Made by a program: the position numbers and the translations under genes. From positions 1 to 45,370 of the forward strand of contig JAGCGK010000014.1 of assembly GCA_017649645.1 (NCBI GenBank): a stretch of 45,370 nucleotides of DNA, written 5' to 3'. The notes under the pieces are model-generated. The model did no database searches, was not told the origin of the DNA, and saw only the letters and a program-made list of their open reading frames with translations. Origin of the DNA: Clostridiales bacterium. Lineage in GTDB: Bacteria; Bacillota; Clostridia; Saccharofermentanales; Saccharofermentanaceae. Shown piece after piece: positions 7,263-44,465 of the stretch (its first letter is position 1; every line of letters starts with the position of its first letter).

Positions 7263-7294
7263 TATTATGTACTCCGAAAGAAGGTGGATATCGG

Positions 7295-8593: not shown

Positions 8594-9059
8594 GTCTCAT
8601 GAAGACGTCCGCATGAGGATTCTCGTTATATCTGGAGATCTCCTCAAAGCCGAATTGCTTATAAATGGCGATCGCGGATTCGCTGGATCTCATAGTGTCA
8701 AGATAAAGCCATGTGTAGCCGAAGGTCTTAGCCTGATCGATGGCAAAACCCACCATCTTCTTGCCTAATCCCTGACCATGGAATTCATTGAGCAGATAAA
8801 GATGCTTGATCTCTCCGGAGTTCCTGTGCATAACTGCTGCGTACTTCGCATCGTAAGGAAGGTCAACAACGGCGATCGTTCCTACGATCTCCTGCTCATC
8901 GTCCATCATTACCCAGAAGTGCCTGTAATTTCCGGCAACATCTGTAAGAGCCTTATGTCTACCATACGGTTCGAAGACTCTTCCGGACTCAGGCATGCAT
9001 TTCTCGAAAAAGTCATTCAGCTGACCTTGAAGAAAATGTACAAAGCCGACAAGACGCAT
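8583..9059 (-). CDS. GNAT-family N-acetyltransferase
   Basis: The 158-residue protein matches a single GNAT domain, which transfers an acetyl group from acetyl-CoA to an amine. The acetyl-CoA pyrophosphate loop is FHGQGLGKKMV, preceded by the beta4 strand GEIKHLYLL, and the C-terminal half carries the common AIAIYKQFGFEE motif. The substrate cannot be told from sequence. I chose the ATG at 9059 because AAAGGA lies eight bases upstream of it; a GTG two codons earlier is too close to that site. The gene is convergent with the acyltransferase and overlaps it by 11 bases. Confidence 0.85.
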   Translation of the reverse strand: MRLVGFVHFLQGQLNDFFEKCMPESGRVFEPYGRHKALTDVAGNYRHFWVMMDDEQEIVGTIAVVDLPYDAKYAAVMHRNSGEIKHLYLLNEFHGQGLGKKMVGFAIDQAKTFGYTWLYLDTMRSSESAIAIYKQFGFEEISRYNENPHADVFMRLKL

Positions 9060-9194
9060 TGACACTATCCTTTCTTGCTTTCTTAAGAAGATTGTAACAG
9101 AATTTCAATATAAAACATATGTCTATAATTTTTCAAAATGGTATCATTTAAATGTTAAAAAACAGAGACTATGCACAAAATCTCGGAGGATAGA

Positions 9195-11111
9195 ATGCGA
9201 AGTAGAACACTATCAAGGTTGGCAGCAACACTCATCGCCGTCTTTCTGGTGATCCAGATCCCGATGGCTTCAGTTAATGCCGGAATATCGGATACAGAAG
9301 GTGTAGGCGGATTTGTAGCTCGTGTCTACAGGACCGTAATGGAACGTGAATATGATCAGGAGGGATTCGATTTTTGGACCAAGGGTCTCATCAATCGTGA
9401 ACTGGACGCAGCCAAGCTCATGGACTGTTTCGTCTTTTCTCCTGAATTTCAGGGATATAACATTTCCGACGAGGATTACGTAAGGATCCTTTATAACTCG
9501 ATGATGGACCGTGAGCCTGACGAATCAGGCAAGGCTTACTGGCTCGATTCCCTTAATCGCGGAATGACCAGAAGAAGAGCATTGTCCTGCTTCATCGATT
9601 CGCAGGAGTTCTCTGATATCTGCTCAGGCTACGGCGTTACAAGAGGAACCCTCCCTCTTACCGAGAACGTAGATATCCACACAGACAAGGTAATGTTCGT
9701 AACAGGAATCTACAGAAATATCCTCGGAAGAGATCCTGACACTGAGGGCCTTAAGAACTGGACAGACTATATTGTCAATGGTAATAACGCATCAGATCTT
9801 ATCCTCGGCTTTATCAACAGCACAGAGTTTAAGAACAGAGGCTTAAGCGACAGTGAGTACATAGCTTGTCTTTACAGGGCATGTCTCGGAAGAGAAGGCG
9901 GCGACAGCGAGATCAGCTCATGGGTCGACTATATGGATTCTCATCTTGTAAGCCGCAAGTACGTTTTCGCGCAGATCCTCGGATCACAGGAATGTTCCAA
10001 CCTCTGCCGTAATTACGGCATCGTGGCAGGAAATGTTGCCTTGAGCGAGAACAGAGATAAGTGCGTTCCTGTAAATGACTTTGTCATCAATGCATTCGAT
10101 AGCATTCTCCAGAGAAAGCCGAGCGAAGATGACATGAACTACTATGCAGGTCAGCTCACAAGCTCCATGACAGCCAACCAGTTCCTGTCTTCTGTTCTCG
10201 GAAGTGCTGAGTGTAAGGCTTTCAACTACAGCGATGAGGAATTCGTAAAGGTTACTTACAAGGCTGCTCTCGGAAGGGAAGCAGGAGATTCCGAAGTCTC
10301 TACATGCGCTAATAAGATCAAGAACAAGGGTAAGAACGAATTCTTAAGTGATATCTACGGAAGCCAGGAGTATAACGACTACTGCAACAAATGCAAGGTA
10401 TCTCCTAACTTTATTTCCGGTTGGAATACAACCGCAGCAGGTAAGGTATACATCCGTGACGGTGCTTTCGTTACAGGTTGGCAGACGATCGACGGCGACC
10501 GTTACTACTTTGATCCGTCCAACAACGTTGCAGCTACGGGTTGGAAGTATATTGACGGACTTAAGTACTACTTCTACGCTGACGGTTCCTTGTGCCAGGA
10601 TGTTACAGGCATAATCGGAGATCAGGATTCCTACTATCTCACGGTTAACTGCACAACTAACACCATCATGGTCTATGCAAAGGATACTAACGGCGAATAC
10701 ATCATACCTGTAAAAGCTATGATCTGTTCTTCTTCAGCAGGCGGCGTAACTCCTTCAGGAACGTTTACGATCCAGCGCCTCCAGGCTTGGAGAGAGCTTA
10801 TGGGACCTGTATGGGGCCAGTATTGCTCAAGGATCACAGGTAACTACCTGTTCCACTCTGTTTGGTATTACCAGAACGGAAATGCCAATACGCAATCAGT
10901 TACCCAGTATAACAACCTCGGTAAATCCGTATCTCACGGATGTATCAGACTTACGGTTGCTGATGCAAAGTGGATCTTCGACAACTGTAACGGAAGCCAG
11001 GTAAAGGTATTCTATTCATCCGATCCTGCACCGTTTGACAGGCCTGTACCTCCGCCGATAACTGCGCTTTATGGAGATTACGGTCACGATCCTACGGATA
11101 TCTGGCATTGA
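9195..11111 (+). CDS. Secreted DUF4214 / cell-wall-binding-repeat / L,D-transpeptidase protein
   Basis: The 638-residue exported protein has three parts. After a signal peptide (basic start, hydrophobic core, cleavage near NAG) come about six DUF4214 repeats up to roughly residue 405. Examples are VYRTVMEREYDQEGFDFW and IYRNILGRDPDTEGLKNW. Next come choline/glucan-binding-type repeats with GW and YYF units (GWQTIDGDRYYFD, GWKYIDGLKYYF). The C-terminus is a YkuD L,D-transpeptidase domain with the catalytic motif SHGCIRL (Cys583) and an upstream FHS histidine. L,D-transpeptidases make 3-3 peptidoglycan cross-links or attach proteins to the wall. The ATG at 9195 follows GGAGG by five bases. A strong terminator follows at 11123. 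Confidence 0.88.
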   Translation: MRSRTLSRLAATLIAVFLVIQIPMASVNAGISDTEGVGGFVARVYRTVMEREYDQEGFDFWTKGLINRELDAAKLMDCFVFSPEFQGYNISDEDYVRILYNSMMDREPDESGKAYWLDSLNRGMTRRRALSCFIDSQEFSDICSGYGVTRGTLPLTENVDIHTDKVMFVTGIYRNILGRDPDTEGLKNWTDYIVNGNNASDLILGFINSTEFKNRGLSDSEYIACLYRACLGREGGDSEISSWVDYMDSHLVSRKYVFAQILGSQECSNLCRNYGIVAGNVALSENRDKCVPVNDFVINAFDSILQRKPSEDDMNYYAGQLTSSMTANQFLSSVLGSAECKAFNYSDEEFVKVTYKAALGREAGDSEVSTCANKIKNKGKNEFLSDIYGSQEYNDYCNKCKVSPNFISGWNTTAAGKVYIRDGAFVTGWQTIDGDRYYFDPSNNVAATGWKYIDGLKYYFYADGSLCQDVTGIIGDQDSYYLTVNCTTNTIMVYAKDTNGEYIIPVKAMICSSSAGGVTPSGTFTIQRLQAWRELMGPVWGQYCSRITGNYLFHSVWYYQNGNANTQSVTQYNNLGKSVSHGCIRLTVADAKWIFDNCNGSQVKVFYSSDPAPFDRPVPPPITALYGDYGHDPTDIWH

Positions 11112-23583: not shown

Positions 23584-24243
23584 GAGATAGTTTTTGAGAA
23601 AAAGAACAGTAATACTTTTGGCCATACTCTTGATAACTTTAATGGGAGTATTATCAAGCGTTTTTTTAGTTGCCAGGTTTAATTATTCTACCAAGCACAC
23701 TATGGTTTACGAACCTTCTCAGTCGGAAGAACTCTTGGTAGCACACGATTTTGGGCTAATTCTTTCTCCTGATATAAGGATTACAAAACTATTCTTTTGT
23801 CAGAATAGAGAAGATGAAAACTCCCTTCGTTCAATAAGAATTGAAGGAGTTAGTGATGTTTATTCTTTTTTGACAAATAACGTGAACCTAGTATCAGAAG
23901 TTACCAAAGAAGAAGATTATATTCTTATTGATGGTGAACCTGTTAATTTTGTGGAAACAGTTGTCGATTATGAGCAAACTGGTCAATATAATGGATCAAG
24001 AGTAGCTGTTCAAATAAAGGGGCGTTACGAACCAGACGGAACAAGAGATTTTGAATCAACTTGCATAATTTCTTTTTTCGTGGATGAAAATGGGGATTTG
24101 CTTTTTGTGGAATGCGGGTATAAATATGTTCCCTACGGATCTAGCTATTCAAATATAAAAGACGAACATTTTTGGGATGATTTTTCTTTGTCGTGGATTC
24201 TTAAAAAGCGTAATACCTGATACCATACTCATTCGATCAGTAG
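23572..24243. repeat. 12-bp direct repeats bracketing an AT-rich gene
   Basis: TTCGATCAGTAG occurs at 23572-23583, as the last codons and stop of the WYL gene, and again at 24232-24243, where it covers the stop codon of the opposing membrane gene. The copies are exactly 660 bases apart and bracket one gene of different composition. No terminal inverted repeats or transposase are visible. Confidence 0.8.
23594..24220 (+). CDS. Single-pass membrane or exported protein, AT-rich, probably acquired
   Basis: The 208-residue product begins with basic residues and one hydrophobic stretch (VILLAILLITLMGVLSSVF), so it is either secreted or held by an N-terminal anchor. The rest is beta-rich and acidic with no motif I know. 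The start is a TTG at 23594 with GGAG seven bases upstream; no better ATG is near. The codon choice (AAT, TTT, ATT, GAA, AGA) is visibly AT-richer than that of both neighbours, and the gene lies between two copies of a 12-bp direct repeat. This suggests recent insertion as a single-gene unit. Confidence 0.65.
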   Translation: MRKRTVILLAILLITLMGVLSSVFLVARFNYSTKHTMVYEPSQSEELLVAHDFGLILSPDIRITKLFFCQNREDENSLRSIRIEGVSDVYSFLTNNVNLVSEVTKEEDYILIDGEPVNFVETVVDYEQTGQYNGSRVAVQIKGRYEPDGTRDFESTCIISFFVDENGDLLFVECGYKYVPYGSSYSNIKDEHFWDDFSLSWILKKRNT

Positions 24244-26468
24244 ATCTGATATACGATAGTGTGATTATCCTCAGGGAAGTATGCTACCTGCTTCAAGTTG
24301 GAAGCAAAGAATTCCGCATTGTACATAGGCTTACCCTCGGCATTTTGAATGTCATAGAATTCCGGATCGAAAACAAGATATTTGATCTCACGCTCTTTAC
24401 AATATGAGACAAACTTATCGATATCCCCGTTACAACCTGTTATAAGCCACTGATAGATCTCGTCACGCGTATAGGTGTCGTGACCCGCTGACCATGCGAA
24501 ATACGGCCAGCCGTAATAAGCAGGACGGCCTGCCAGGAAGAAACGGTTGACCGACCACATAGGTGTCAGGAAGACATCCGATGAGGATGTGTTATGTTCG
24601 ATCCAATCAACGAGTTCGGATCTGGTATTAACGTCGATATGACCCTTGTTTATGTTGATATAGACGCACCATTCGACGATACCCGTTCCCGTAAGTCCCA
24701 CGAGAAGACAAAGAGCTATGATGACTGACAGTACTTGTGTCGGAATGAACGCAGGCAAAGGAAGGATGAACTTCTTCTTATCCTCGGATTCCTTATTCAG
24801 AGCTTCCTCCAGCTTGTCGTTATCAAGAGGCAGGAGCTTAGGAAGACCTGTATCTTTTTTCGGAGCGAACGGGAGCCAGAAGAGGTTCGCGAGAAGGGAT
24901 GCCACAAAGATATCCACGAAGATGAGAGATATCTGAATGAACTTATGATTAGCGAGCATCTCAAGTGAAACCTTAACGTTGAATGCAAAGATCAACGGCA
25001 AAAGGAAAGTCACGAACAGAAGCGGCATGTAAGGAGGACGCTTCTTAAGTATATCGAAAACCAGTCTCGCTACTGCAAAAAGCACAGCCGAGATCAAGGT
25101 GAAACCGGTGATGTAGATGAGATAACGATAAGGACTTCCGAAGGTGCTCTCGTTACTTACAAATCCGCTCTGAAGAGAGAACTTGACCATGTTGGTGTAA
25201 GAACCGGAGAATATCCTGGTCTGAATGTACGAAGATGCGACGGCGCATACTGCGACCGCGAGATAACTTAATCTGCTCTCACTTACTATTGCCATGCCGA
25301 AGAGAATAAGAAGTCCCGCGATGAGAGCCGATCCGTGGATATAAGGCATTACGATAACGAGAATACACGCGAGGATCAGGTTCTTATATGGGCTGAGCGG
25401 ATCGCCTTTGCGAGGGATCCAGGAATTCTTCGTAAGGAAGAAACTCTTAAAGCCGTCGGATGAGACAGAGATACACAGGCGTCTCACATATGGGACAAAG
25501 AGTATCACGAGTATAAGTATCATTGAAACACCGAACATTAAGTGTCGCTGGTTCGCGTAAACATTGATGGCCCAGATGCCCCAATCGTCATAAGGGGTCT
25601 GCTTGAACCAAGAGAAAGAATGCAGGAGAACATTGATGCTTCTTGTGACACCGTATTCATGCTGCATCATATTCGAAAAAGATGAGAAGACGTTAAACGA
25701 ACTTCTGAAAAGAACGAGAAGCGGAGCAAAGAAGAATGTCATCCTTCTTCCGCTCAGAAGGACTCCCAAAAGTCCAAGGAGCATGAAGCAGCAGACCATG
25801 GCGATGATCGAAGGAACGTTGATCGCATAGTCGATCGGGAAACCCAGAAAACCCAGGATGCCGCAGAAGAAATAGAAGAAGAAATGATACTGAATTCCGT
25901 CTCCCGAATAATGCATGTATTGTGTCGGGAAGTTGGAGCCGACGCTGAATGACGATGTCATTGCCGTGTGAGGCGACAGGTCAGAGAAAACGGAGTAACC
26001 GTTTATGAGCATTCCGTCGGAGATCCTGAAAGTGTAGAAGAACAGGAATGATGCGACGGTCGTGAAAAGCACGATGGAGATCCCGTAGAACAGAGTGTTC
26101 TTGATGGAATTATCGAAGTTCGGGATCTTGGGATTTGCTTCCTTTTTCTTCTTGCGTTCTTTGTCGATGAACATGAAGATCATGTAGCACATGATAACGG
26201 TGACGACTGCAGTTCCTGCTGTTATGGCCGTTTGTTTTCGAGTAAGGACATAAGAAAATCCCAGGGATGCGTAGTACGTGAGGAATGTCGCGATGGAGAT
26301 TCCGGTTATGATACCTGCGGGAACTTTGAAGAGGAGATCCGGGATATTGGTCAGCTGCTTTTTTGAGACTGCTGTCGCAACATAAAGTCTCCTGATGTCA
26401 GGCACGAGAAAAGATACGAGTTCGTACCCGAATACAGCACATACCAAAATGAATAAGATTCCCAGCAT
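24237..26468 (-). CDS. Large polytopic membrane protein, possible GT-C-type glycosyltransferase
   Basis: The 743-residue protein has more than a dozen hydrophobic helices, starting with LGILFILVCAVFGYELVSFLV at the N-terminus, and a soluble C-terminal domain of about 130 residues that ends in IVYQIY. This layout, with aromatic-rich loops (YMHYSGDGIQYHFFFYFF), resembles GT-C-fold lipid-linked-sugar glycosyltransferases and related mannosyltransferase-like proteins, but I see no diagnostic motif. The C-terminal domain contains LFLTPMWSVNRFF-type and YLVFDPEFYD stretches common at the end of such proteins. GAGGAAG precedes the ATG on the minus strand. The gene stands alone and faces the acquired gene. 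Confidence 0.6.
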   Translation of the reverse strand: MLGILFILVCAVFGYELVSFLVPDIRRLYVATAVSKKQLTNIPDLLFKVPAGIITGISIATFLTYYASLGFSYVLTRKQTAITAGTAVVTVIMCYMIFMFIDKERKKKKEANPKIPNFDNSIKNTLFYGISIVLFTTVASFLFFYTFRISDGMLINGYSVFSDLSPHTAMTSSFSVGSNFPTQYMHYSGDGIQYHFFFYFFCGILGFLGFPIDYAINVPSIIAMVCCFMLLGLLGVLLSGRRMTFFFAPLLVLFRSSFNVFSSFSNMMQHEYGVTRSINVLLHSFSWFKQTPYDDWGIWAINVYANQRHLMFGVSMILILVILFVPYVRRLCISVSSDGFKSFFLTKNSWIPRKGDPLSPYKNLILACILVIVMPYIHGSALIAGLLILFGMAIVSESRLSYLAVAVCAVASSYIQTRIFSGSYTNMVKFSLQSGFVSNESTFGSPYRYLIYITGFTLISAVLFAVARLVFDILKKRPPYMPLLFVTFLLPLIFAFNVKVSLEMLANHKFIQISLIFVDIFVASLLANLFWLPFAPKKDTGLPKLLPLDNDKLEEALNKESEDKKKFILPLPAFIPTQVLSVIIALCLLVGLTGTGIVEWCVYININKGHIDVNTRSELVDWIEHNTSSSDVFLTPMWSVNRFFLAGRPAYYGWPYFAWSAGHDTYTRDEIYQWLITGCNGDIDKFVSYCKEREIKYLVFDPEFYDIQNAEGKPMYNAEFFASNLKQVAYFPEDNHTIVYQIY

Positions 26469-34698: not shown

Positions 34699-34744
34699 GT
34701 AGTATACTTCTCGCATGGGCAAGACTATTTTGGGGGAACATCCT

Positions 34745-36787
34745 ATGCGAAAAGCATTTCTTAGATCAGCGGCTTTAATGGTCGTAACAATAATATTGGT
34801 AATGACTGCAGCTTTCGGATCCGTGTATGCGGATCCGGAAGCTGTTGTTGACGGAACAAATCCGTGGGAGAGCGGCGGACAGATAACTCTGACGCTCAAG
34901 AACTGCGACGGCTATAACAAGATAACCGTTGTGGCTGACTTCGGAGGCACTGTCACGGACGCGTCAGGATGGGGTTTTGATACGTACAAAGTTGACGGCA
35001 GCAAAGTAACTGCGGAAGTTACAAGAGGCGGTCAGAATGACTGGGCCTTTAACGGCAGCGTCGGTATCCAGGTCAACGGTTCGAATATCAACGAGATAAA
35101 GCTCGTATCCATAACCGGTGATTCCACGAGCGGTACGATCTCCACATCAACTCCTGCACCTACAACGGCTCCGACATCCTCAGGCGAACCTGTTGTTACG
35201 GGTTCATCGGAGAACAAAGAAGGAAAGAAGGGCGACGACTGGCTTACCACAAAGGGCAGCAAGATCGTCGATCAGAACGGAACAGAAGTATGGCTTACGG
35301 GTGTTAACTGGTTCGGTTATAACACGGGAACGAACATTTTCGACGGATGCTGGTCCTGCAGCATGGACGGTGCACTTAAGGCGATCGCAGACAGAGGATT
35401 TAACCTCCTTCGTATACCGATCTCCGCTGAACTTCTTCTTAACTGGAGAAGCGGAACATATCCGAATGCCAATTTCAATCAGTCGACCAACTCGGAACTT
35501 ACCGGAATGAACAGTCTCGAGATCCTGGATTATGCTCTCGCGAGATGTGAGACTTACGGTATCAAGGTCATGTTCGATATCCACAGTGCTGAGACTGATG
35601 CATCAGGTCATAACGCTCCATTGTGGTACACGGGTAAGATCTCGACCGAAGATTACCTCACGGCTCTGGACTGGCTTTCTGCCCGCTATAAGGACAACGA
35701 TACAGTCATAGCATATGATCTTAAGAACGAGCCTCACGGCGCGGGCAACGAACAGAACCGTGCCATCTGGAACGATTCCAAGGATCCTAATAACTGGCCT
35801 TATGTTGCAGCACTTGCAGGCAACACGATCCTCGATAACAACCCGAACGCGCTCATCGTTATCGAAGGTAACCAGATATTCCCTAAGGACATCAAATCCA
35901 ATAACTTCACATCCATGAACGAAGGCGATTACTATAATGCATGGTGGGGCGGAAACCTCATGGGCGTTAAGGATTATCCTGTAGATCTGGGTTCTGCCGA
36001 GAGGAATAAACAGATAGTATATTCTCCTCACGATTACGGTCCTGCCGTTTATCAGCAGCCGTGGTTCAACTCGGGTTTTTCCTATCAGTCGCTGATGGAT
36101 GATTACTGGTATGACTACTGGTTCTACATCAAAGACCAGGACATCGCTCCTATCCTCATCGGTGAGTGGGGTGGCTTTATGTCCGGTGATAATCTCACAT
36201 GGATGACTTACTTAAGACAGCTCATAGGCGAGTACAATCTCAACTACACATTCTGGTGCTTTAACGCCAACTCCGGAGATACCGGCGGACTTGTAAAGGA
36301 CGACTTTACCACATGGGACGAGGAGAAATACTCATTCGTATCCGAAGTCCTCTGGAAAACATCCGACGGTAAGCCGATCGGTCTTGACCATGAGATCGCT
36401 CTCGGTGCTAACGGCGTAAGTCTCGGAACTATAAGCGGCAGCGTTGAGCCGACTGAACCTGCCGTTACTCCCGAACCTTCCGAAGAGACGGAGATTACTG
36501 ATGAGACAGAAGTATCAGCTGATGATACCAAGGTCTCAGATGAGACGACTGTCTCAGTTTCCGTTGAAACAGAAGTTGAAGAGGAAACTACTGATGAAGT
36601 AAGCACAAAGAAAGCCGATAACAAACTTCAGTTATCGGCTCTCGGAAATATCCTTAAAGTTGTAGCTGTTATCGCGGTCGTAGTCGTAGTCGCACTGATC
36701 GTTTTCGTCGTAACGAGAGTTATCGTTCTTAAGCGTAAAGGTCAGAACTTCAAGGAGATCCTGGTCAACATCTTTAAGCTGTTCTGA
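34745..36787 (+). CDS. Membrane-anchored GH5 cellulase/endoglucanase
   Basis: The 680-residue exported enzyme should cut beta-1,4-glucan. After a signal peptide (cleaved near VYAD) come a CBM-like beta-sandwich (about 40-125, ending WAFNGSVGIQVNG), a Thr/Pro linker, and a GH5 domain from about 165 to 550. Acid/base Glu329 lies in LKNEPHG and nucleophile Glu474 in ILIGEWGG. An acidic Thr/Glu linker (565-620) leads to one transmembrane helix at about 635-657 and a short basic tail (LKRKGQNFKEIL), so the enzyme is held on the cell surface. GGGGGA lies seven bases before the ATG at 34745. The helix and tail resemble those of the three surface proteins at 39058-43552. Confidence 0.9.
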   Translation: MRKAFLRSAALMVVTIILVMTAAFGSVYADPEAVVDGTNPWESGGQITLTLKNCDGYNKITVVADFGGTVTDASGWGFDTYKVDGSKVTAEVTRGGQNDWAFNGSVGIQVNGSNINEIKLVSITGDSTSGTISTSTPAPTTAPTSSGEPVVTGSSENKEGKKGDDWLTTKGSKIVDQNGTEVWLTGVNWFGYNTGTNIFDGCWSCSMDGALKAIADRGFNLLRIPISAELLLNWRSGTYPNANFNQSTNSELTGMNSLEILDYALARCETYGIKVMFDIHSAETDASGHNAPLWYTGKISTEDYLTALDWLSARYKDNDTVIAYDLKNEPHGAGNEQNRAIWNDSKDPNNWPYVAALAGNTILDNNPNALIVIEGNQIFPKDIKSNNFTSMNEGDYYNAWWGGNLMGVKDYPVDLGSAERNKQIVYSPHDYGPAVYQQPWFNSGFSYQSLMDDYWYDYWFYIKDQDIAPILIGEWGGFMSGDNLTWMTYLRQLIGEYNLNYTFWCFNANSGDTGGLVKDDFTTWDEEKYSFVSEVLWKTSDGKPIGLDHEIALGANGVSLGTISGSVEPTEPAVTPEPSEETEITDETEVSADDTKVSDETTVSVSVETEVEEETTDEVSTKKADNKLQLSALGNILKVVAVIAVVVVVALIVFVVTRVIVLKRKGQNFKEILVNIFKLF

Positions 36788-36790
36788 TGA

Positions 36791-38335
36791 TCAAAGTCCC
36801 AGGACTTCTTCTACGATAGCGAAGACTTTTTCCTGTTCTTCTTTATCCATTAACATGGCGATCTCATCGTGAGATGATTTCTGATCGACGAAAGTATGAA
36901 AATTATCGCGGTCTTCCACGTCCGGAAGCCTTACTGAATACCATACGTCGCATCCGCCGTAAAGGAGGATAACATCGCACTCGGTCGTATTCATCCATTC
37001 CATGACTGACTGTCTTACGGAAGGATCATACGTGATGGAATCATAGATCTGCTCAGGGAAGACGACCTTATAAAGGAGCATGTCTTCCATGTCTTCGGTG
37101 ATGACAAGTTCTGCACCGCTGCCATCTTTTTCGAGAGCGGCACGAAGGAAGGAGAAATCATATTCGTGCTCTCCGAGTTCCATTGCTGCCTGAATGTAGT
37201 ACGGATAGTACGGTGTTGTCGTGCTCCAGTCGAGCGGGATGGATCTGGACAGGAGAAGCAGGAGAAGATCCGATACGTAATCAGGACTGTCCTTGGAATC
37301 GAGGACGCTCCTTATGTTATCGAAGTCCCTGGAGTACTGCCATGTGTAAGTCGCGAACTCCAATACGCCCAGATCGAACAGGATCTCCGGCGTAGTGAAA
37401 TCCGTATAGACGGCGCCGTCATCCAGACCTGCCTGATAGAAAGCATCCTGCATCTCATCTCTGTGCTTGATGCATTCCACCTGGAATTCCAGAACAGTCT
37501 CACGGTAGACCGCTGCCTTTTCCTCGCCGTAGCACTCATTGCCGATAGTCTCATAGATATTGTCGTAATAATCCGCAGCCTGAGGACCGTCGCTGAACGG
37601 AGCCACAGTCGCGATATAAAGATCCATGTCAGACGGGAAATACATGGACTGGATCATAGTCGTCATGCCGCCCTTGCTTCCTCCTGACATGAGCCACTTG
37701 CCCGGGAAAACCCTCTTCAGCTGCTCGGTAATATGATGGAAATCGCAGGCCGCATTGTAACTTGTAAGATACTGCCAAAGCTCAGGATCATTCACATCAA
37801 GACCCTTTGGCGTCGACTGTCCGAAAAATCTGAATTCCGCATTTACACAGTTTGTCATGTAGGTAAACTGCCAATAACTCTGCATTCCGAAAGATAAGAA
37901 ATCATCATCGAGAAGATAGCCGCTGACATTGAGATTCGTAACGTCGCTTTCCGTGTTACAGACCTGGACTCTCTGCCTGAAATATCCCACGGAAGGATCA
38001 TTCCAGTCGATCGGCTGATTGAACCAGACAATGTAAGTGTCATTGCTCACTTCATCGACCCGCACAACACCGTCCAAAGCCTCGAGCTTCTCGTTGAACG
38101 GCAGGCTCTCATCGATCGGCTCGAACTCTTTCGTTGTTTCCGCCGTCGTCTCTTCAGTCGTCTCAGTCGTTTCGTCCGTTACTTCGGAAGTCTCATCAGT
38201 AGCCTCTGTTGTGGCCTTCGCAGTCTTCTTGGTGGCATCAGTTTCTGTCTCGTCTGTTTTTCTGCTCGAAAAACACGAAGTAAGCATAACTGCTGCAACA
38301 ATCACTGCTGCCACAGTCCTAAAACCTTTTTTCAT
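36791..38335 (-). CDS. S37/PS-10-type serine peptidase lipoprotein
   Basis: The 514-residue protein begins with a lipoprotein signal whose lipobox ends LTSC (Cys21), then a Thr/Glu-rich linker (about 27-72). The body resembles the S37 (PS-10) tripeptidyl aminopeptidase family, with an alpha/beta-hydrolase core. The nucleophile is probably Ser220 in MSGGSKGGM, with a possible Asp in GGCDVW and His in SSHDE near the C-terminus. It should act at the cell surface, releasing N-terminal tripeptides if the family call is right. Its stop lies three bases from the GH5 stop, so the two genes converge with no intergenic room. Confidence 0.72.
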   Translation of the reverse strand: MKKGFRTVAAVIVAAVMLTSCFSSRKTDETETDATKKTAKATTEATDETSEVTDETTETTEETTAETTKEFEPIDESLPFNEKLEALDGVVRVDEVSNDTYIVWFNQPIDWNDPSVGYFRQRVQVCNTESDVTNLNVSGYLLDDDFLSFGMQSYWQFTYMTNCVNAEFRFFGQSTPKGLDVNDPELWQYLTSYNAACDFHHITEQLKRVFPGKWLMSGGSKGGMTTMIQSMYFPSDMDLYIATVAPFSDGPQAADYYDNIYETIGNECYGEEKAAVYRETVLEFQVECIKHRDEMQDAFYQAGLDDGAVYTDFTTPEILFDLGVLEFATYTWQYSRDFDNIRSVLDSKDSPDYVSDLLLLLLSRSIPLDWSTTTPYYPYYIQAAMELGEHEYDFSFLRAALEKDGSGAELVITEDMEDMLLYKVVFPEQIYDSITYDPSVRQSVMEWMNTTECDVILLYGGCDVWYSVRLPDVEDRDNFHTFVDQKSSHDEIAMLMDKEEQEKVFAIVEEVLGL

Positions 38336-38362: not shown

Positions 38363-38920
38363 TTATTTAGTCAATTCAACAAAGTAGCGGATCTGACCGT
38401 AAACAGGGATCAGATAGAAGAAGATCCTTGTCCATGGCATACCGAGATCGCGGATCCTTCTTACCGTTGAACTTACGAACGCCAAACATGCAGCGGCACG
38501 TACAAGAAAAGCCGCATACTTAACGAACGGAATATAATCAACTACGATTCCCGCGATCATAACGATGAGGAAGAACAGCGCACCGAACCAATATTCCTTC
38601 TTGCCTGCTGTTCCTGTGAAATCAACGATCTTAGTTATGAAATTCTTTATTGCGAGACCGAAGTTCATGCGGCCGTCCGAACTCTGATTTTGGTTCTGAC
38701 CTGCACCTGTATATGTATTTCCGCTCTGATAGTTTGCATCCGTTCCCGTAACAGCAGGAGCCTGAATGACCGGTTCTGCCTGAGGAGCCGGAGCAGGCTC
38801 TGACACTGCTTCAGCAGCTGCTTCAACAACTTTAGTAGCTGTAGCTGTTCCAGTTCCGCAAGACGTACAGAACTTCAGATCGTCCGGTAATCTTTCTCCG
38901 CATTTTGAGCATATGATCAT
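38363..38920 (-). CDS. Zinc-ribbon DUF805 membrane protein
   Basis: The 185-residue protein has an N-terminal zinc ribbon (CSKCG, then CTSCG), an Ala/Pro-rich linker, and a DUF805 domain with the usual FTGTAGKKEYWFGALFF stretch and three to four membrane helices, ending in PVYGQIRYFVELTK. DUF805 proteins are inner-membrane proteins of unknown role. I chose the ATG at 38920 (MIICSKCG) because GGGAGG lies eight bases upstream of it; an in-frame ATG seven codons further has no such site. The neighbouring peptidase gene lies 27 bases downstream. Confidence 0.85.
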   Translation of the reverse strand: MIICSKCGERLPDDLKFCTSCGTGTATATKVVEAAAEAVSEPAPAPQAEPVIQAPAVTGTDANYQSGNTYTGAGQNQNQSSDGRMNFGLAIKNFITKIVDFTGTAGKKEYWFGALFFLIVMIAGIVVDYIPFVKYAAFLVRAAACLAFVSSTVRRIRDLGMPWTRIFFYLIPVYGQIRYFVELTK

Positions 38921-39019
38921 TTGAGTATCCTCCCAAATCATTTGTTATCAGCATTTTACTACGAAAAGTCATTGTTGTGTCTTTTGATAAAAAATATTAA
39001 AAAATCTTTATAAACAGTG

Positions 39020-39057: not shown

Positions 39058-40329
39058 ATGCGAGAAAAGAAATTGTTCATTTCCGTGATCATGGCATTGA
39101 CCATGTTGTTTGCGTTGTTTGGAAATGTTGCTGCTGACGGAAGATCGGCAAATGATTCCGGTTCCGGCTACAATGACGGAACATTCAGTTTTTCATTCAG
39201 GTTATCAGGTTGTTCGGATTGCTCGAGCGTAACGGTTGAAATCGATCTCGACGATGCCGTTCTTACGGGCAGCGCCAGCTCATCGAACTGCGATTCCGCA
39301 TCCGTATCGGGCGGGGACACCATATACGTCACGATAACAGCGGCAAACAACCCGGGCGCCATAAGCGGTTCATCCACCGTTACGGTCAGCGTGGGAGCAA
39401 GCGGATCAACGGGCTATTCAATATCTCTCGCCGGATATGATATCGCGACGACTGATACTCCGACCCCGACTCCGACATCCACATCTACGCCGACTCCTAC
39501 TAACAAGCCGACGGTTTCACCATCTCCGACAGCTACTCCTAAGCCGACAGCAGCCCCGACTCCGACTACTGCTCCTGTTGAGACAGAGTCAGATACGGAA
39601 GCAACGGCTACACCTACTCCAACTTCCACACCAACACCTACACCAACGGGATCTACTACTCCTACACCTACTCCGACAGGTTCAGTAACTCCTACGCCGA
39701 CAGCAACTTCGACACCTACACCGACACCTAAGGCTATGGGCGACGGCGAGACTGACAGAGGTAATACTGAGAATACTGATGAGACAGAGATAGTTGAAGA
39801 GTCAGAGACATTCTTTGAAGGTGAGATCCCTACTAAGTCAGCAACCAAGGTTATGCAGCAGGTTGAGGACAAGAAGAAGGAGATCGATGTCGGTGATGTT
39901 ATCTGGAATGTTGTTAAGTTCGTTGTCATAATCCTGGTTGTAATTGTTATAGTCAGGATCGTTATCCTTAAGGTCAAGGGTGTATATAATGAAGATCTTC
40001 TCAAGGAATTCATTCCTGCCGCCATAAGACCTGATTTCCTTCGCGATAAACCTGTTGAGGAAGAAGCACCTATTGAATCTCACAAGGGATTCCTGCAGAA
40101 GTCGAATACCGAATCCGTAAGACCTGTATATTCGAACACGTTTAAGGCAGCCCCTCGACCGGAAGGCGATGAGGACGATAAGTTTGTTCAGGGTGCTTCC
40201 ATCGTAAAACAAAGACCTCAGAATAAGAAGGGCAAAGCTAAGAACAAGCCTCCTGTCAAGGAGACTCCTAAGGCTCCTGAGGAAGACATAAATGAGCATT
40301 CCTTGGATGAACTCGACAGCGACGATTAA
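39058..40329 (+). CDS. Surface protein 1: signal, beta domain, TP-rich linker, TM helix, conserved cytoplasmic tail
   Basis: The 423-residue protein has a signal peptide (MREKKLFISV start, cleaved near ADG), a beta-rich domain up to about residue 125, a long TPTPT-rich linker, an acidic stretch, a membrane helix at about 282-302 and a basic cytoplasmic tail. The tail starts RIVILKVKG and continues NEDLLKEFIP, then has GFLQKSNTESVRPVYSN and a Lys/Pro/Glu end. The last block recurs in the proteins at 40468 and 41981. The beta domain may bind a polysaccharide, which is an inference from its place beside a cellulase. AAGGAG precedes the ATG at 39058; an earlier GTG is less likely. A strong terminator follows. 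Confidence 0.75.
   Translation: MREKKLFISVIMALTMLFALFGNVAADGRSANDSGSGYNDGTFSFSFRLSGCSDCSSVTVEIDLDDAVLTGSASSSNCDSASVSGGDTIYVTITAANNPGAISGSSTVTVSVGASGSTGYSISLAGYDIATTDTPTPTPTSTSTPTPTNKPTVSPSPTATPKPTAAPTPTTAPVETESDTEATATPTPTSTPTPTPTGSTTPTPTPTGSVTPTPTATSTPTPTPKAMGDGETDRGNTENTDETEIVEESETFFEGEIPTKSATKVMQQVEDKKKEIDVGDVIWNVVKFVVIILVVIVIVRIVILKVKGVYNEDLLKEFIPAAIRPDFLRDKPVEEEAPIESHKGFLQKSNTESVRPVYSNTFKAAPRPEGDEDDKFVQGASIVKQRPQNKKGKAKNKPPVKETPKAPEEDINEHSLDELDSDD
39453..39737 (+). repeat. Thr-Pro codon repeats in surface protein 1
   Basis: The linker DNA is a run of ACT/ACA/ACG-CCG/CCT codons (TPTPTP units) with near-identical short direct repeats. Such tracts can change length by slippage. Confidence 0.6.
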
Positions 40330-40340
40330 TTGAGGACAAG

Positions 40341-40371
40341 GACCGTTTCACAAAGGTGAGACGGTCTTTTT
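40341..40371 (+). terminator. Intrinsic terminator after surface protein 1
   Basis: GACCGTTTCAC pairs with GTGAGACGGTC (one G-T and one wobble position) around a short loop and runs into TTTTT. It lies 11 bases past the stop codon. Confidence 0.88.
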
Positions 40372-40424
40372 GTATACGTTGTATTAAATATTCTTTTCAA
40401 GTCTCACTAACGTCAAATAGATGT

Positions 40425-40430
40425 TATAAT
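40425..40430 (+). promoter_or_regulatory. Likely -10 element of surface protein 2
   Basis: TATAAT lies 38 bases before the TTG start at 40468. No good -35 is visible; the 13-base sequence CAAGTCTCACTAA (40398-40410) just upstream recurs with one change ahead of surface protein 3. Confidence 0.4.
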
Positions 40431-40467
40431 GAGGTCAGTGTTTGAATGTAGTTGGGGGTAATATATC

Positions 40468-41679
40468 TTGCGCAAAAAGACATACATTGGAATTCTTGTT
40501 TCATTGCTGACATGTTGTCTTGTCTTTCTATCCTTATCTTGGGTAGCAGGCGAGACGGTATTTGCTGAAGGAACCGCAACAGGTTCAGTTACCAGTGATT
40601 CGGGAGATCCTGATTTTGCACATCTTCATTTAACGTTATCCGGATTCGAAGCCGGTGATGTTGTTACGGTTACTGTTGAATTTGATGTGAATGACATCTA
40701 TGCAAATTCCGGTGACAGTGTAGTAAGTGTCCAAACTGAAGGATCATCTGTCAACGTCTATAAGATATCATGTTACAGCCCGTACAGTTCACCGGACGGA
40801 ACGTACTATATTGCTCTCAGCGGAGTTTCAATTGCCGGAGTTTCCATAGAAAGTATTACGGTGGATAATGTCGAGCATAATCCTCCGCCGGCAACCGCTA
40901 CTCCTACGCCTAAGCCGGCTACTCCGACACCAACCCCGAAACCGGCAACTCCTACACCGACACCTAAGCCGGCAACACCAACTCCGACTGCTGCACCGGC
41001 AACTTCTACTCCAACTGCTGCGCCAACAGCAACACCGGTTCCTCCTGTAGAGACTTCTGATGAAACAGAACCTTCGGAGACCACGGCTACACCTACACCG
41101 ACATCTACACCAACTCCGACTCCAACGGAGACACCTACACCTACAGCGACATCGACTCCGACCCCTACATCGGTACCTAAGAATCCGGGTGACGGAGAAA
41201 AAGACAGATCGGATGAGAAGATCTACGATGAAACAGAAGAGACTGAAGATCCTGATCATGTTCCTACCAAACCTCCAACGAAACTTAGCGGTTTTATCGG
41301 GAAAAAGGATGATGGTAATGGTCCGAGTGCAGGTGCCATTATCTGGGGTATCGCAAAGTATGTTCTCATCATTTCTGCAGTCCTTATCGTAGGAAGATTG
41401 ATCTACCTTAAGGCCATCGGAACATATAACGAAGATCTTCTTAAGGAATTTATTCCGTTCAGGAAGAAGAAGGCTGATGATGATATGCCTGCACCGCAAG
41501 CGGTTAACGGCTATCTTCAGAAATCCAATACAGCTGCCGTTAGACCTGTGTACTCCAATGCTGCTTCTGAAGCAACCAGAAACAGAGGAGTCAATCATAA
41601 ACCTATAACGGGTGTCGGCAGATCTAACATGGCTGATGCTGCTGATAGTGAGTATAAATTGCCTGAAAGCGATGATTAA
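40468..41679 (+). CDS. Surface protein 2: paralogue of surface protein 1
   Basis: The 403-residue protein has a signal peptide (basic start, long hydrophobic core, cleaved near FAEG), a beta-rich domain to about 130, a Pro/Thr/Ala linker built from KPATPTPT-type units, an acidic stretch, one membrane helix at about 291-311 and a cytoplasmic tail. The tail has RLIYLKAIG, NEDLLKEFIP and GYLQKSNTAAVRPVYSN, near-identical to those of surface protein 1. The start is a TTG with GGGGG about nine bases upstream. Function is unknown; a beta-sandwich binding domain held by a helix with a conserved inner tail suggests a sensor or a scaffold. Confidence 0.72.
   Translation: MRKKTYIGILVSLLTCCLVFLSLSWVAGETVFAEGTATGSVTSDSGDPDFAHLHLTLSGFEAGDVVTVTVEFDVNDIYANSGDSVVSVQTEGSSVNVYKISCYSPYSSPDGTYYIALSGVSIAGVSIESITVDNVEHNPPPATATPTPKPATPTPTPKPATPTPTPKPATPTPTAAPATSTPTAAPTATPVPPVETSDETEPSETTATPTPTSTPTPTPTETPTPTATSTPTPTSVPKNPGDGEKDRSDEKIYDETEETEDPDHVPTKPPTKLSGFIGKKDDGNGPSAGAIIWGIAKYVLIISAVLIVGRLIYLKAIGTYNEDLLKEFIPFRKKKADDDMPAPQAVNGYLQKSNTAAVRPVYSNAASEATRNRGVNHKPITGVGRSNMADAADSEYKLPESDD
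40887..41181 (+). repeat. Pro-Thr-Ala codon repeats in surface protein 2
   Basis: Several tandem units of roughly 30 bases encode KPATPTPT-like peptides and are almost identical at the DNA level. The long opposite-strand frames in this tract follow from the repetition and are not genes. Confidence 0.6.
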
Positions 41680-41760
41680 GTGTTGGCAAATCTCACTAAA
41701 AACACTAAAAGATAATTGACTATAAAATAGATATACACTAGTATTCTTTTATCGAAGTAT

Positions 41761-41808
41761 ACGTCCATTACCGCCAGACGCGCTGCGGTAGTGGACGTTC
41801 TAGTTTTT
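41761..41808 (+). terminator. Hairpin and T-run after surface protein 2
   Basis: ACGTCCATTACCGC (41761-41774) pairs with GCGGTAGTGGACGT (41785-41798, one G-T pair), and TTTTT follows at 41803-41807. It lies 80 bases beyond the stop, farther than usual. Confidence 0.65.
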
Positions 41809-41923
41809 AACGATTCTAAAAAACGACAATTCCCATTTATCTGGCATCAAAACGATCTTTGTGCAATATGCATAAAAGAAGAGTGTTTATGGTGAGTGTT
41901 CTGCTGAAAAATGCATAATTCCG

Positions 41924-41932
41924 TGATATAAT
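41924..41932 (+). promoter_or_regulatory. Extended -10 promoter of surface protein 3
   Basis: TGATATAAT has the TGn extension directly before TATAAT and lies 48 bases ahead of the ATG at 41981. An extended -10 can work without a good -35. Confidence 0.55.
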
Positions 41933-41980
41933 AGTATTGTGTTTTTGTTGCATCGTTGTGTTTGTTTGGGGGAATTCGTT

Positions 41981-43552
41981 ATGAACAGCAATAAAAGACT
42001 AAGGGGCCTTACAGCTCTTTTGATTTCTTTACTGATGGTGATCTGTGCTGTCGGATTCGGCAATGATGTACTTGCTGATGGCACAAGCGATTCAGTTTCT
42101 TTAAGGAGTGTTTGGGGAGAAGGCGCTACTGTTGATATTTCAGGAAGCGGATATCAACCCAATTCCACATTTACCATAACAGTTAATTTCAATATGCCTG
42201 TTTCAGTTAACGATTATTGGGAAGCAAGTTCGGCTTCTGCCAGTGGCAGTTCCGTTACATTAACTGTTACTTCAAAAGCTGATGGCTCTTATACATGCGG
42301 CATGAATCTATCAGGTTCCGGATTTGTTGATTATGCAGCTGAAGGCCAACCTGTTATTTTTGCTTTCACCGGTTCTTCTTCAACAGGAAGTGCTCCAAAG
42401 GCAGAACCTGCAGCGCCGAAGCCGGATGAGAATAAACCTGCACCACCAAAGCCGAACGAGAATAAGCCTGCGGCACCAAAACCGGATGAGAACAAGCCGG
42501 CAGATCCAAAGGCTGATGAAAAGAAGGCTGAAGAACCTAAACAGGCTGAACCGGCAAAACAGGATCAGAATAACAACAATAACAATAGTAGTAACGATAA
42601 TAACAACACTTCGAAGAATACGGCTACGTCTACTCCTACAGCTGCTCCGACCAGCACACAGGATAACGGTAAGTCCTCAACTTCTTCGAATTCAGGAAAC
42701 TCAGATTCTTCTGCAACAGCAGCGCCAACCAAGTCTGCTTCCGCTGACAGTGCTGCAACTACAACAGCACCGAAGACGACAGATGCTCCTTCTTCTGACA
42801 ACAACAATGAAAAGAAGAATGAGACTGATACAGTAGAAACCTCTTCAAAAGCAGAACCTGAAACAACGGAGACAACTGAAGAGACTGAACCTGAAAACAC
42901 AGAGGAGACAGAGCCTTCTGAGTCTGTAGCTGCAGTAGCAGATGAGACTGAGGCGGCTGATGTAGCTGTTGTGATCGATGAAGGAACAGATGAATCCGGG
43001 GAACCGACACCAACACCTACAGCTCCGATCAATGTTAACGGAATAATCACTCCTCGCGGCGGACGTAAGAAGGACGGAATGAGCTGGTGGGCTTTCATCT
43101 TGATCCTCGTAGGAATAGGTGTCGGAGTAAGACTTGCTATACTTAAGAGCCAGGGTGTTGATAATTCAGAACTCGCGCTTGAGTTCATTCCTCTCGGAGC
43201 GATCAAGAGCAAGTTCAAGAAAGATGCCGTGCCGGTTGAAGAAAAGAATGAAGACGAACCGAAGGTCGTTAACGGATATCTCAAGAAGTCAGATACAGCT
43301 GCAATAAGACCAATGTATTCAAATGCAGCTTCCGGATCTGCATCAAGAGTAAGAGGCGGAACAAAGCAGACACCTCGAGTTGATGAACCTTCAACGGCTA
43401 CCAGCAAGGTAACGACGAACAAAGTTAGTTCAAGTCCTTCAAAGAAGACAACTACATCGTCGTCATCGAGCTCGAGCAACACCGCTTTCAATCATGCTCA
43501 GGCAATGAAAGAATTGAGAGCGATGGAGGAAGCTGAGAAGAACGGGCGCTGA
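41981..43552 (+). CDS. Surface protein 3: longest paralogue of the tandem set
   Basis: The 523-residue protein has a signal peptide (cleaved near LADG), a beta-rich domain to about 135, a repeated linker of KPDENKP-type units and Gln/Asn/Ser/Thr-rich stretches, an acidic Glu/Thr segment, one membrane helix at about 368-388 and a cytoplasmic tail. The tail has RLAILKSQG, NSELALEFIP, GYLKKSDTAAIRPMYSN and a Ser-rich end that ends in a charged helix. The match to surface proteins 1 and 2 is clearest in the helix-proximal tail and the KSnTaa motif. The ATG at 41981 follows GGGGGAA. It may bind polysaccharide; this is inferred. Confidence 0.72.
   Translation: MNSNKRLRGLTALLISLLMVICAVGFGNDVLADGTSDSVSLRSVWGEGATVDISGSGYQPNSTFTITVNFNMPVSVNDYWEASSASASGSSVTLTVTSKADGSYTCGMNLSGSGFVDYAAEGQPVIFAFTGSSSTGSAPKAEPAAPKPDENKPAPPKPNENKPAAPKPDENKPADPKADEKKAEEPKQAEPAKQDQNNNNNNSSNDNNNTSKNTATSTPTAAPTSTQDNGKSSTSSNSGNSDSSATAAPTKSASADSAATTTAPKTTDAPSSDNNNEKKNETDTVETSSKAEPETTETTEETEPENTEETEPSESVAAVADETEAADVAVVIDEGTDESGEPTPTPTAPINVNGIITPRGGRKKDGMSWWAFILILVGIGVGVRLAILKSQGVDNSELALEFIPLGAIKSKFKKDAVPVEEKNEDEPKVVNGYLKKSDTAAIRPMYSNAASGSASRVRGGTKQTPRVDEPSTATSKVTTNKVSSSPSKKTTTSSSSSSSNTAFNHAQAMKELRAMEEAEKNGR
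42397..42560 (+). repeat. KPDENKP-type tandem repeats in surface protein 3
   Basis: Three to four units encode (P)APKPDENKPA-like peptides in near-identical DNA of about 33 bases each, after which the units degrade into KADEKK and Gln/Asn-rich sequence. Confidence 0.6.
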
Positions 43553-43640: not shown

Positions 43641-43667
43641 TTTTAGAGAAAAATTGTGGAGGAGCCC

Positions 43668-44465
43668 ATGAAGACGGCAATAATCACCGGTGCATCATCA
43701 GGTATCGGAGAGGCATTCTTAAGAGAACTTGTAAGTGACCAGAGATACGAACAGATCTGGATCATCGCAAGGCGTGCGGATAAACTTAACGCCCTTTCTG
43801 AAGAACTCGGAAAAGAACGGATCATTCCTGTAGTTCTTGATCTTACTGACAGCAAGGGTCTTGATATCCTGTCTTCCAAACTCGAACAGGAAAAGCCTCA
43901 GGTGGAGCTTCTCATAAACTGCGCAGGCATGGGTAAGCGCGGTACCGTAAATGATATCTCTTTGTCAGATCTCGAAAACACGGTCAACCTCAACTGCAAT
44001 TGCCTTACGAAAACCACCAAGATATGCCTTCCGTATATGACGGGTCACGGCAGATCTTTTAAGGACGGTCCGAGGATCCTTAATATCGCTTCTTCCGCAG
44101 CTTTCCTTCCGCAGCCGGGATTTTCGGTATATGCGGCGTCGAAGGCTTATGTAACGAGTTTTTCGAGAGCACTGCAGTTTGAGCTTAAGAAGTTTAATAT
44201 CGGTGTTACCACCGTTTGTCCGGGACCTGTTAAGACAGAGTTCCTTAAGAAAGCAACCGACAACAAGGCAGGCGAGTTCACGGGCATCAGAGCACTTTGT
44301 GCGGCTGATCCGGTTAAGCTTGCCAGATCTTCTCTCAAGGCATGTCGAAAAGGAAGGGGACTTTACGTTTATAAGGTTTCCCAGAAAGCATTGCATGTGG
44401 CTTCAAAGATAGTCCCGACTTCGTGGATACTTTGGATTGAGAAGGTTACAATGAAACAGTTCTAA
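43668..44465 (+). CDS. Short-chain dehydrogenase/reductase
   Basis: The 265-residue classical SDR has the cofactor motif TGASSGIGEAF (about 8-18), a NCAGMG stretch (NNAG-type), and the active-site pair in YAASKAYV with an upstream Ser (IASSAAF). It oxidises or reduces an unknown alcohol or ketone with NAD(P). The C-terminal part (VASKIVPTSWILWIEKV) is hydrophobic and may touch the membrane, as in some sterol- or lipid-linked SDRs. GGAGGAG precedes the ATG at 43668. It stands alone between two terminators or hairpins. Confidence 0.88.
   Translation: MKTAIITGASSGIGEAFLRELVSDQRYEQIWIIARRADKLNALSEELGKERIIPVVLDLTDSKGLDILSSKLEQEKPQVELLINCAGMGKRGTVNDISLSDLENTVNLNCNCLTKTTKICLPYMTGHGRSFKDGPRILNIASSAAFLPQPGFSVYAASKAYVTSFSRALQFELKKFNIGVTTVCPGPVKTEFLKKATDNKAGEFTGIRALCAADPVKLARSSLKACRKGRGLYVYKVSQKALHVASKIVPTSWILWIEKVTMKQF

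Follow-up and report, generated by a model that had tools for sequence, protein, structure and literature searches.

Why should surface proteins keep a conserved peptide on what is very likely the inner side of the membrane? The question is raised by three tandem genes, referred to here as P1, P2 and P3, of a Clostridiales bacterium (GenBank assembly GCA_017649645.1, contig JAGCGK010000014.1); this contig of 45,370 bases, hereafter the window, forms part of a 3.18 Mb, 201-contig assembly of approximately 90% completeness. The named relatives within its genus include Saccharofermentans sp., placed among the Clostridia (Oscillospiraceae) in the NCBI taxonomy. An earlier note, made from the letters of the DNA alone, had described the products of these genes as surface proteins with two conserved motifs in their inner tails, and had suggested docking or phosphorylation as the function of the latter. 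The second of these, motif 2, was found to extend throughout the genus and to occur on surface proteins, on a GH5 cellulase or on stand-alone proteins; that it serves as a docking peptide, tying a cellulase and surface-protein apparatus to a shared cytoplasmic partner, is a proposal we regard as evenly poised between right and wrong.

P1 (39058..40329, + strand; 423 residues), P2 (40468..41679, +; 403 residues from a TTG start) and P3 (41981..43552, +; 523 residues) each contain an N-terminal hydrophobic segment and one further predicted helix, and the anatomy that had been claimed for them, namely a signal peptide, an outer domain (approximately 100 residues in P1), a low-complexity linker (PT-rich in P1 and longer in P3), one membrane helix and a two-motif tail, was borne out by the translations, helix prediction and alignment. 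Motif 1 conforms to R...LK..G..N..L..EFIP and is found as RIVILKVKGVYNEDLLKEFIP at 39955..40017 (+) of P1, where it is membrane-proximal, as RLIYLKAIGTYNEDLLKEFIP at 41395..41457 (+) of P2, and as RLAILKSQGVDNSELALEFIP at 43130..43192 (+) of P3. Motif 2, with the pattern (N/K)G(Y/F)L(Q/K)KS(N/D)T..(V/I)RP(V/M)YSN, follows as KGFLQKSNTESVRPVYSN at 40084..40137 (+), NGYLQKSNTAAVRPVYSN at 41506..41559 (+) and NGYLKKSDTAAIRPMYSN at 43271..43324 (+), respectively. A genome-wide search for the tail motif disclosed one further copy in the genome of the window, on a protein of 379 residues (G000:C6); the sole other profile match for motif 2 in this genome (E=0.94) was taken as chance. Alignment of the four copies with MAFFT identified R, L, K, G, N, L and E-F-I-P of motif 1, and G, L, K-S, T, R-P and Y-S-N of motif 2, as invariant. 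Neither Pfam nor NCBIfam provided a match over cut-off in P1-P3, and comparison of the motif with the PDB returned two matches only, with E values of 1.5 and 1.8. A GltJ match in P2 (E=0.0016), which coincides in part with the PT linker and scores 17.6 bits where the cut-off is 450, was attributed to low complexity. The fourth copy is flanked, on both strands, by large genes (L166:63-3618 and 7037-9589) whose products look like secreted proteins or lipoproteins and by eye resemble extracellular solute-binding proteins.

The outer parts of these proteins had been thought to have diverged further than their tails. With BLASTP, the alignments of P1 with P2 (2e-27) and of P2 with P3 (1e-18) run from the linker or the pre-helix stretch into the tail and leave the outer domains unaligned, and that of P1 with P3 (1e-6) takes in the helix and motif 1 and leaves out motif 2. 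Relative to a near relative (L134), the identities of P1, P2 and P3 are 60, 87 and 63% in the outer domain, 95, 98 and 94% in the helix plus motif 1, 100% for each in motif 2, and 86, 87 and 97% in the tail beyond motif 2. Relative to a distant one (L145), for which the counterparts were picked by hand and orthology was presumed, the corresponding values are 44, 39 and 50%, 65, 61 and 61%, 70, 90 and 80%, and 19, 54 and 52%. The claim of slower change in the tails therefore stands for both motifs but not for the remainder of the tail, which is as divergent as the outer domain against L145. The codons of motif 2 differ widely among P1, P2 and P3, with synonymous change being abundant within the motif, and hence its likeness is kept at the level of the protein and is no DNA-level artefact.

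Profile searches (E<=0.01) located motif 2 in 76 of the 85 genomes of the genus and, with weak scores, in 16 of the 23 genomes of a sister genus; none was found in the seven genomes that represent the family's three remaining genera. Within the order, 87 of 188 genomes matched at E<=0.001, confined to two of 30 genera, and 12 of the 391 genomes in a sample of the class gave a match, 11 of these being from the same genus and one being a chance-like match in a 23-residue frame. Motif 1 was found by profile in 75 of the 85 and 18 of the 23 genomes, with two marginal matches elsewhere in the order. Motif 2 is thus genus-wide, not limited to P1-P3, and among the genomes searched it is restricted to two sister genera; absence from homologues in relatives, which the earlier note had named as an outcome that would speak against its proposal, was not what was observed, the motif being present and strongly conserved in relatives. 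In the sister genus, it reads NGYLQKP...RP(I/V)RSN (e.g., NGYLQKPTVG...RPVRSN) in 13 of 13 surface proteins of six loci chosen from the 16 matching genomes, as listed with a pattern that itself holds RP.RSN. Common to both genera are NGYLQK and RP(V/I).SN at differing spacing; the final Ser is kept, and KSNT and Tyr are not. Named relatives with motif 2 comprise Saccharofermentans sp., Mageeibacillus sp. and Ruminococcaceae, Oscillospiraceae, Clostridiales, Clostridia and Lachnospiraceae bacterium, and their stated sources are the ruminant gut or horse faeces.

The protein that carries motif 2 was found to vary from locus to locus. Loci were sorted by regular expression, 67 named ones having been gathered with a motif-derived pattern, and 66 loci, including the window, were divided among four kinds of carrier (c6, 41; surface protein, 15; GH5 cellulase, five; small protein, five), with one kind per locus. 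The c6 carrier, a protein of some 220-370 residues, has a single helix at its N-terminus and lacks an outer domain, and in the regions read its gene usually follows directly upon that of the cellulase; motif 2 adjoins a c6 flank in 44 of the 76 motif-bearing genomes. In five named loci the motif forms part of the cellulase's own C-terminus, and surface proteins carry it in the window and 14 other loci, as well as in the sister genus. At seven loci it is found on a small open reading frame (ORF; 56-97 residues as listed) near a surface gene, two of these falling below the ORF length limit, and in the six surface proteins read at such loci the tail retains only a degenerate DYS(N/Q).T...AAEAAREAQ-like stretch. 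At L133, L136, L139, L140 and L142 (also L132 and L141), the surface tail appears to have been split, with the degenerate motif on the surface protein and the full motif on the small ORF; where read, in five split-tail loci, the next ORF encodes a tail of the KRP type described below. Anchoring of the small protein to the membrane by an amphipathic N-terminus was considered and found to be unsupported, only one of seven being below 0.05 relative to shuffles.

A tree of 53 GH5 catalytic domains (unrooted, with support by the Shimodaira-Hasegawa-like approximate likelihood-ratio test; two short rows of 55 were dropped, and the 12 sorted loci lacking a GH5 ORF are not on it) separates the surface and small carriers (95) from the c6 and cellulase carriers (95). 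All cellulase carriers cluster together (100) among the c6 rows, to which they are joined at 80, and the small carriers lie within a group supported at 99. The carrier thus changes along the tree three times among labelled rows, or four times when L141, unlabelled there but a small carrier, is counted. Given that surface proteins carry the motif in the sister genus, the surface carrier is suggested to be the ancestral state.

With a query free of the motif, c6 was recovered from 45 of the 85 genomes of the genus (E<=1e-4), 44 of which also have a motif-2 match; in the 45th (G067) the contig ends before the motif. The 40 genomes with no c6 match include those with other carriers and at least one (G033) in which c6 is cut by a contig end. 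All 30 c6 ORFs found in this motif-blind manner, representing as loci 30 of the 45 c6-bearing genomes, hold motif 2, and 27 of them have it as the exact 19-mer NGYLQKSNTAPIRPVYSNT. The mean column entropy within c6 is 0.036 bits over motif 2 compared with 1.22 overall, the next lowest separate stretch having a value of 0.384, and the motif is hence conserved well above the rest of its carrier. A C-terminal block common to c6 and the long surface proteins was judged weak (hhalign 43.6%, E=0.00024) and was not used; a profile of the long surface proteins matched 14 c6 proteins, with E values of roughly 1e-5 to 1e-4 for the eight listed, the set being small, and the reverse search gave none among the matches listed.

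The cellulase of the window (34715..36787, +) is a membrane-anchored GH5 enzyme with a Pfam Cellulase domain (E=7e-44), the nearest solved structure by sequence being that of the E1 endocellulase (1ece; 1e-61). Its N-terminal domain is related to that of P3 and of the long surface proteins, and the end of its membrane helix and a weak motif 1 (E=0.001) together occupy 36680..36769 (+), with no motif 2 on this cellulase. Within the genus, motif 2 and GH5 (E<=1e-60) are linked: 72 of the 85 genomes have both, four the motif only, four GH5 only and five neither (Fisher p=0.0004, uncorrected for kinship or missing contigs). In 66 of these 72 genomes, the two are on one contig, separated by a median of 642 and a maximum of 6156 nucleotides.

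Judging from the sequences, motif 2 very likely lies on the inner side of the membrane, as had been supposed. In the five GH5 carriers, one helix separates it from the catalytic domain, and since the cellulase across that one helix must act outside, the motif would be inside; in all five, the stretch after the helix is richer in Lys plus Arg than that before it. The same is true of 35 of 37 c6 proteins, in a count that sorted at least one surface protein (motif distance of 364) as c6. The orientation of the surface proteins rests mainly on their signal peptide, linker and single helix, because the charge rule is weak for them.

P1-P3 would thus be type I single-pass surface proteins displaying a putative carbohydrate-binding outer domain on a linker, with the two motifs inside. 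At the inner face of the membrane in most carriers, motif 2 may bind a shared cytoplasmic partner, and this binding would serve to recruit, cluster or position, as a single apparatus, the surface proteins together with the membrane-anchored GH5 encoded next to them. It seems that the cell requires one kind of carrier for the peptide at this locus, a place that may be filled by a surface tail, c6, the tail of the cellulase or a small protein. Docking to one conserved partner is favoured because the peptide is near-invariant in a fast-changing tail, is predicted to be inside, and is borne by different proteins at the one locus. That a peptide found throughout the genus, and predicted to be inside, can be carried by the cellulase, by a surface protein or by a separate protein suggests a single functional unit that extends across the membrane.

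A number of observations weigh against this proposal. No partner of motif 2 was found. One genome (G014) has GH5, a surface protein and a KRP tail but no ORF with motif 2, and another (G077) keeps the locus with only a degenerate NNGYMEREH... stretch in place of the motif, indicating that it is dispensable at least there and arguing against an essential role. Conversely, four genomes (G049, G054, G079 and G088) have motif 2 with no GH5 match, and hence the motif does not depend on the cellulase. The sister-genus genomes read have their surface genes and GH5 on different contigs, and the function of the tail would therefore not be tied to this enzyme alone; at three loci of that genus whose full length was read, the surface genes are near citrate-synthase-like and uvrA-like genes, as read from translations. 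Lys plus Arg exceeds the pre-helix value in only 12 of 26 surface proteins and equals it in six. The small ORF is devoid of a helix and rarely amphipathic, and presentation of motif 2 at the membrane is thus not general. Finally, invariance counts over the 74 copies of motif 2 in the genus are partly circular, as a pattern selected these copies, and the three of 30 motif-blind c6 proteins with Tyr for Leu (one also with Ala for Val) would escape that pattern.

Peptides at the inner ends of single-pass proteins are known to act in this way in other bacteria. PbpC of Caulobacter, a single-pass cell-wall synthase, is reported to have an N-terminal inner tail in which short, highly conserved peptides flank a proline-rich stretch and a basic segment adjoins the helix; one terminal peptide is required for recruitment, suffices for it, and makes direct contact with the polymer of the bactofilin BacA (PMC12448750). 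The inner tail of the bitopic division protein FtsN, also N-terminal, is reported to bind the cytoplasmic filament of FtsA, and FtsN regulates an outer enzyme system (PMC7613929). P1-P3 share with PbpC a short conserved peptide in the predicted inner tail of a single-pass protein, and with FtsN the putative tie between such a tail and outer enzymes; by analogy, PbpC-BacA and FtsN-FtsA may be regarded as working bacterial precedents for peptide docking. However, the tail is C-terminal here, PbpC is a cell-wall synthase with a bactofilin as its partner, and FtsN is a division protein with FtsA as its partner. A bactofilin was excluded as the partner, PF04519 being found at E<=1e-5 in none of the 108 genomes of the two motif-bearing genera and in one of the 115 genomes of the family, which belongs to another genus.

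Long inner tails provide a further element. The surface proteins of relatives with long tails have repeated (A/P)P(I/V)KRP.(S/E).S(V/S)N(R/H)A-like motifs, and this KRP motif, the pattern for which was chosen after the tails had been seen, occurs 62 times in 32,766 tail residues compared with none in 26,807 outer residues (79 proteins, three of them not surface proteins) and 11 times in 802 other ORFs totalling 322,370 residues. By eye, the repeats resemble API-RP..SN of motif 2, in which case the tails would be multivalent. Among L034-L053 and L084-L150 (e.g., L034:9480-13589 and L099:10108-14814), surface proteins of up to 1568 residues were observed whose inner tails reach about 1100 residues and contain repeated KRP.S.SVN, KSPFKP, SSNSNQLGSLL, RAPVWAAP and AYGGIVRP units and long Ala/Glu/Lys/Arg-rich stretches. 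To our knowledge, inner tails of such length bearing repeats are unusual for Gram-positive surface proteins. At the C-terminus of P3, an element AFNHAQAMKELRAMEEAEKNGR (43484..43549, +) was recognised whose FN.A.AMKEL..ME recurs in the tails of relatives, as read from translations with no statistics.

A broader proposal, which we offer only tentatively and consider the less probable of the two, is that of a previously undescribed docking system of gut Clostridia at the inner face of the membrane, organised from inside, in which the near-invariant 19-residue peptide, passed between unrelated carriers, would together with the KRP repeats bring cellulase and surface proteins together on a scaffold in the cytoplasm, as an alternative to the outside scaffold of the cellulosome. 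If the partner were a scaffold or polymer, this would represent a second way of organising plant-fibre degradation, from inside as opposed to the outside cohesin-dockerin assembly, and the 19-residue peptide offers a bait with which to fish for the inner partner directly. Cohesin-bearing clostridial surface proteins for plant-cell-wall degradation, possibly held by a C-terminal helix, are described in PMC11557425, the available part of which mentions no conserved inner motif; they have a cohesin, in contrast to the outer domain of P1-P3 with no significant Pfam match and a weak cohesin match in the PDB set (E=0.014). Among PMC papers, a search that covers neither subscription papers nor preprints, none contains the letters NGYLQKSNT, RPVYSN or KSNTAPIRP, and none on cellulase-holding or surface proteins of Saccharofermentans was apparent by title or abstract start among the matches listed. 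Bacteria of the Saccharofermentans group occur in many assemblies from the ruminant gut and horse faeces, and the manner in which they hold cellulases on the cell is not described in the literature found.

Other functions can be envisaged for the tail, and the one that survives best, although unlikely, is signalling: motif 2 would be a Ser/Thr site of a Hanks-type kinase, read by an FHA domain (pTxxI/V) to report the binding of polysaccharide outside. Consistent with this, Ile or Val occupies position +3 from the Thr in 69 of the 74 pattern-selected copies, and FHA domains are present in 111 of the 115 genomes of the family. These 111 are distributed over all five genera, including those lacking the motif, and an FHA partner is therefore not discriminating; moreover, the I/V/L/D required at +3 is replaced by Pro in five of the 74, this Pro being present in the three cellulase carriers examined. 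KSNT is replaced in the six sister-genus loci, and the Tyr is Phe in six of the 74 copies and Arg in the sister genus. With KSNT and the Tyr not common to the two genera, phosphorylation at that Thr or Tyr is unlikely to be the conserved function. The suggestion that Ser and Thr of the motif are candidate kinase sites is thus weakened; of the Ser, Thr and Tyr candidates, the two genera share only the final Ser of SN, the context of which is in our judgement not that of a typical kinase site.

A sensor of the RsgI/sigma-I kind, with the outer domain sensing cellulose and the inner tail controlling transcription, is more doubtful still. RsgI proteins have an architecture of carbohydrate-binding module (CBM) and linker, and their RsgI_N domain is paired with a sigma-I factor. 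In cellulolytic clostridia, RsgI is a membrane anti-sigma factor that releases an N-terminal inner fragment, as reported in PMC12203970, and P1-P3 resemble it in having an outer domain that may bind carbohydrate (substrate-sensing in RsgI), one helix, an inner part and a cellulase context. Nevertheless, RsgI_N was not detected in the genome of the window (E<=0.001, in an assembly about 90% complete and with B. subtilis as a positive control), P1-P3 gave no Pfam match over curated cut-off, and the inner part is N-terminal in RsgI but by prediction C-terminal here; identity with RsgI was rejected on account of the missing RsgI_N. The neighbouring genes that were read included none recognisable as that of a sigma factor, no dedicated search having been made.

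Equally doubtful is a signal for assembly or sorting, by which export or insertion machinery, or a protease, would read the tail motifs to fix the helix or process the protein. Motif 1 would suit such a role, being directly after the helix wherever found, in a survey for which proteins were chosen by a FIP-like tripeptide after the helix and three of 79 were not surface proteins. The distance of motif 2 from the helix, however, varies between 22 and more than 100 residues, and the motif is found also on the helix-less small protein. A co-translational arrest peptide timing membrane insertion would account for a short near-invariant stretch with R-P after a helix, but is very improbable, given that the spacing from the helix is not fixed and that some 60 to 170 residues follow the motif in complete c6 proteins; we know of no arrest peptide with the sequence of motif 2. 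Mere shared ancestry or recent gene conversion of P1-P3, which are tandem paralogues, in the absence of a conserved role is scarcely credible against the divergent codons and the genus-wide conservation in non-tandem single copies on different carriers.

For the outer domain, iterated profiles from P1, P2, P3 or the N-terminus of GH5 each gathered 115-124 proteins at 1e-3, every set including all four window proteins. Separately built profiles indicate that P2, P3, the long surface proteins and the N-terminal domain of GH5 form one family (92-98% in five of six pairings, and 49% for GH5 with P2), to which the outer domain of P1 is weakly linked (7-35%). The domain has no significant Pfam or PDB match. 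The best approach to a known CBM family was CBM_2 in one of 22 domain members (Pfam, E=0.012) and 1e5b in a PDB profile search (E=0.2), and matches to the cohesins 5m2o and 5aoz were weak (E=0.014 and 0.024), with no Pfam cohesin. The domain may bind carbohydrate, a guess made from its context. This domain of approximately 100 residues, found at the N-terminus of GH5 and of surface proteins (about 120 proteins, L084-L156), possibly represents a new family of carbohydrate-binding module.

Between the cellulase gene and P1 are genes on the - strand for an S37-like peptidase (36791-38335) and a DUF805 protein (38363-38941), and beyond P3 is that of a short-chain dehydrogenase (43656-44465). As read from the sequence, each of P1, P2 and P3 has a TATAAT hexamer and a G-rich stretch resembling a Shine-Dalgarno sequence ahead of its start; by a promoter scan, such sites were no more frequent than in shuffles (9 versus 8.1, standard deviation 2.9). 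Small signal-peptide-like proteins with repeated VYGPPP units, possibly modified peptides, are encoded beside a radical-SAM-like gene (by eye) at L034:13614-13973 and in six other regions (cluster c10). Elsewhere in the window, a protein of 743 residues with no Pfam match at E<=1e-5 (24237-26468, - strand; cluster c4) is kept near this position in 15 of 21 regions, and a single protein encoded at 9171-11111 combines four DUF4214 stretches, choline-binding-type repeats and an L,D-transpeptidase (YkuD) domain.

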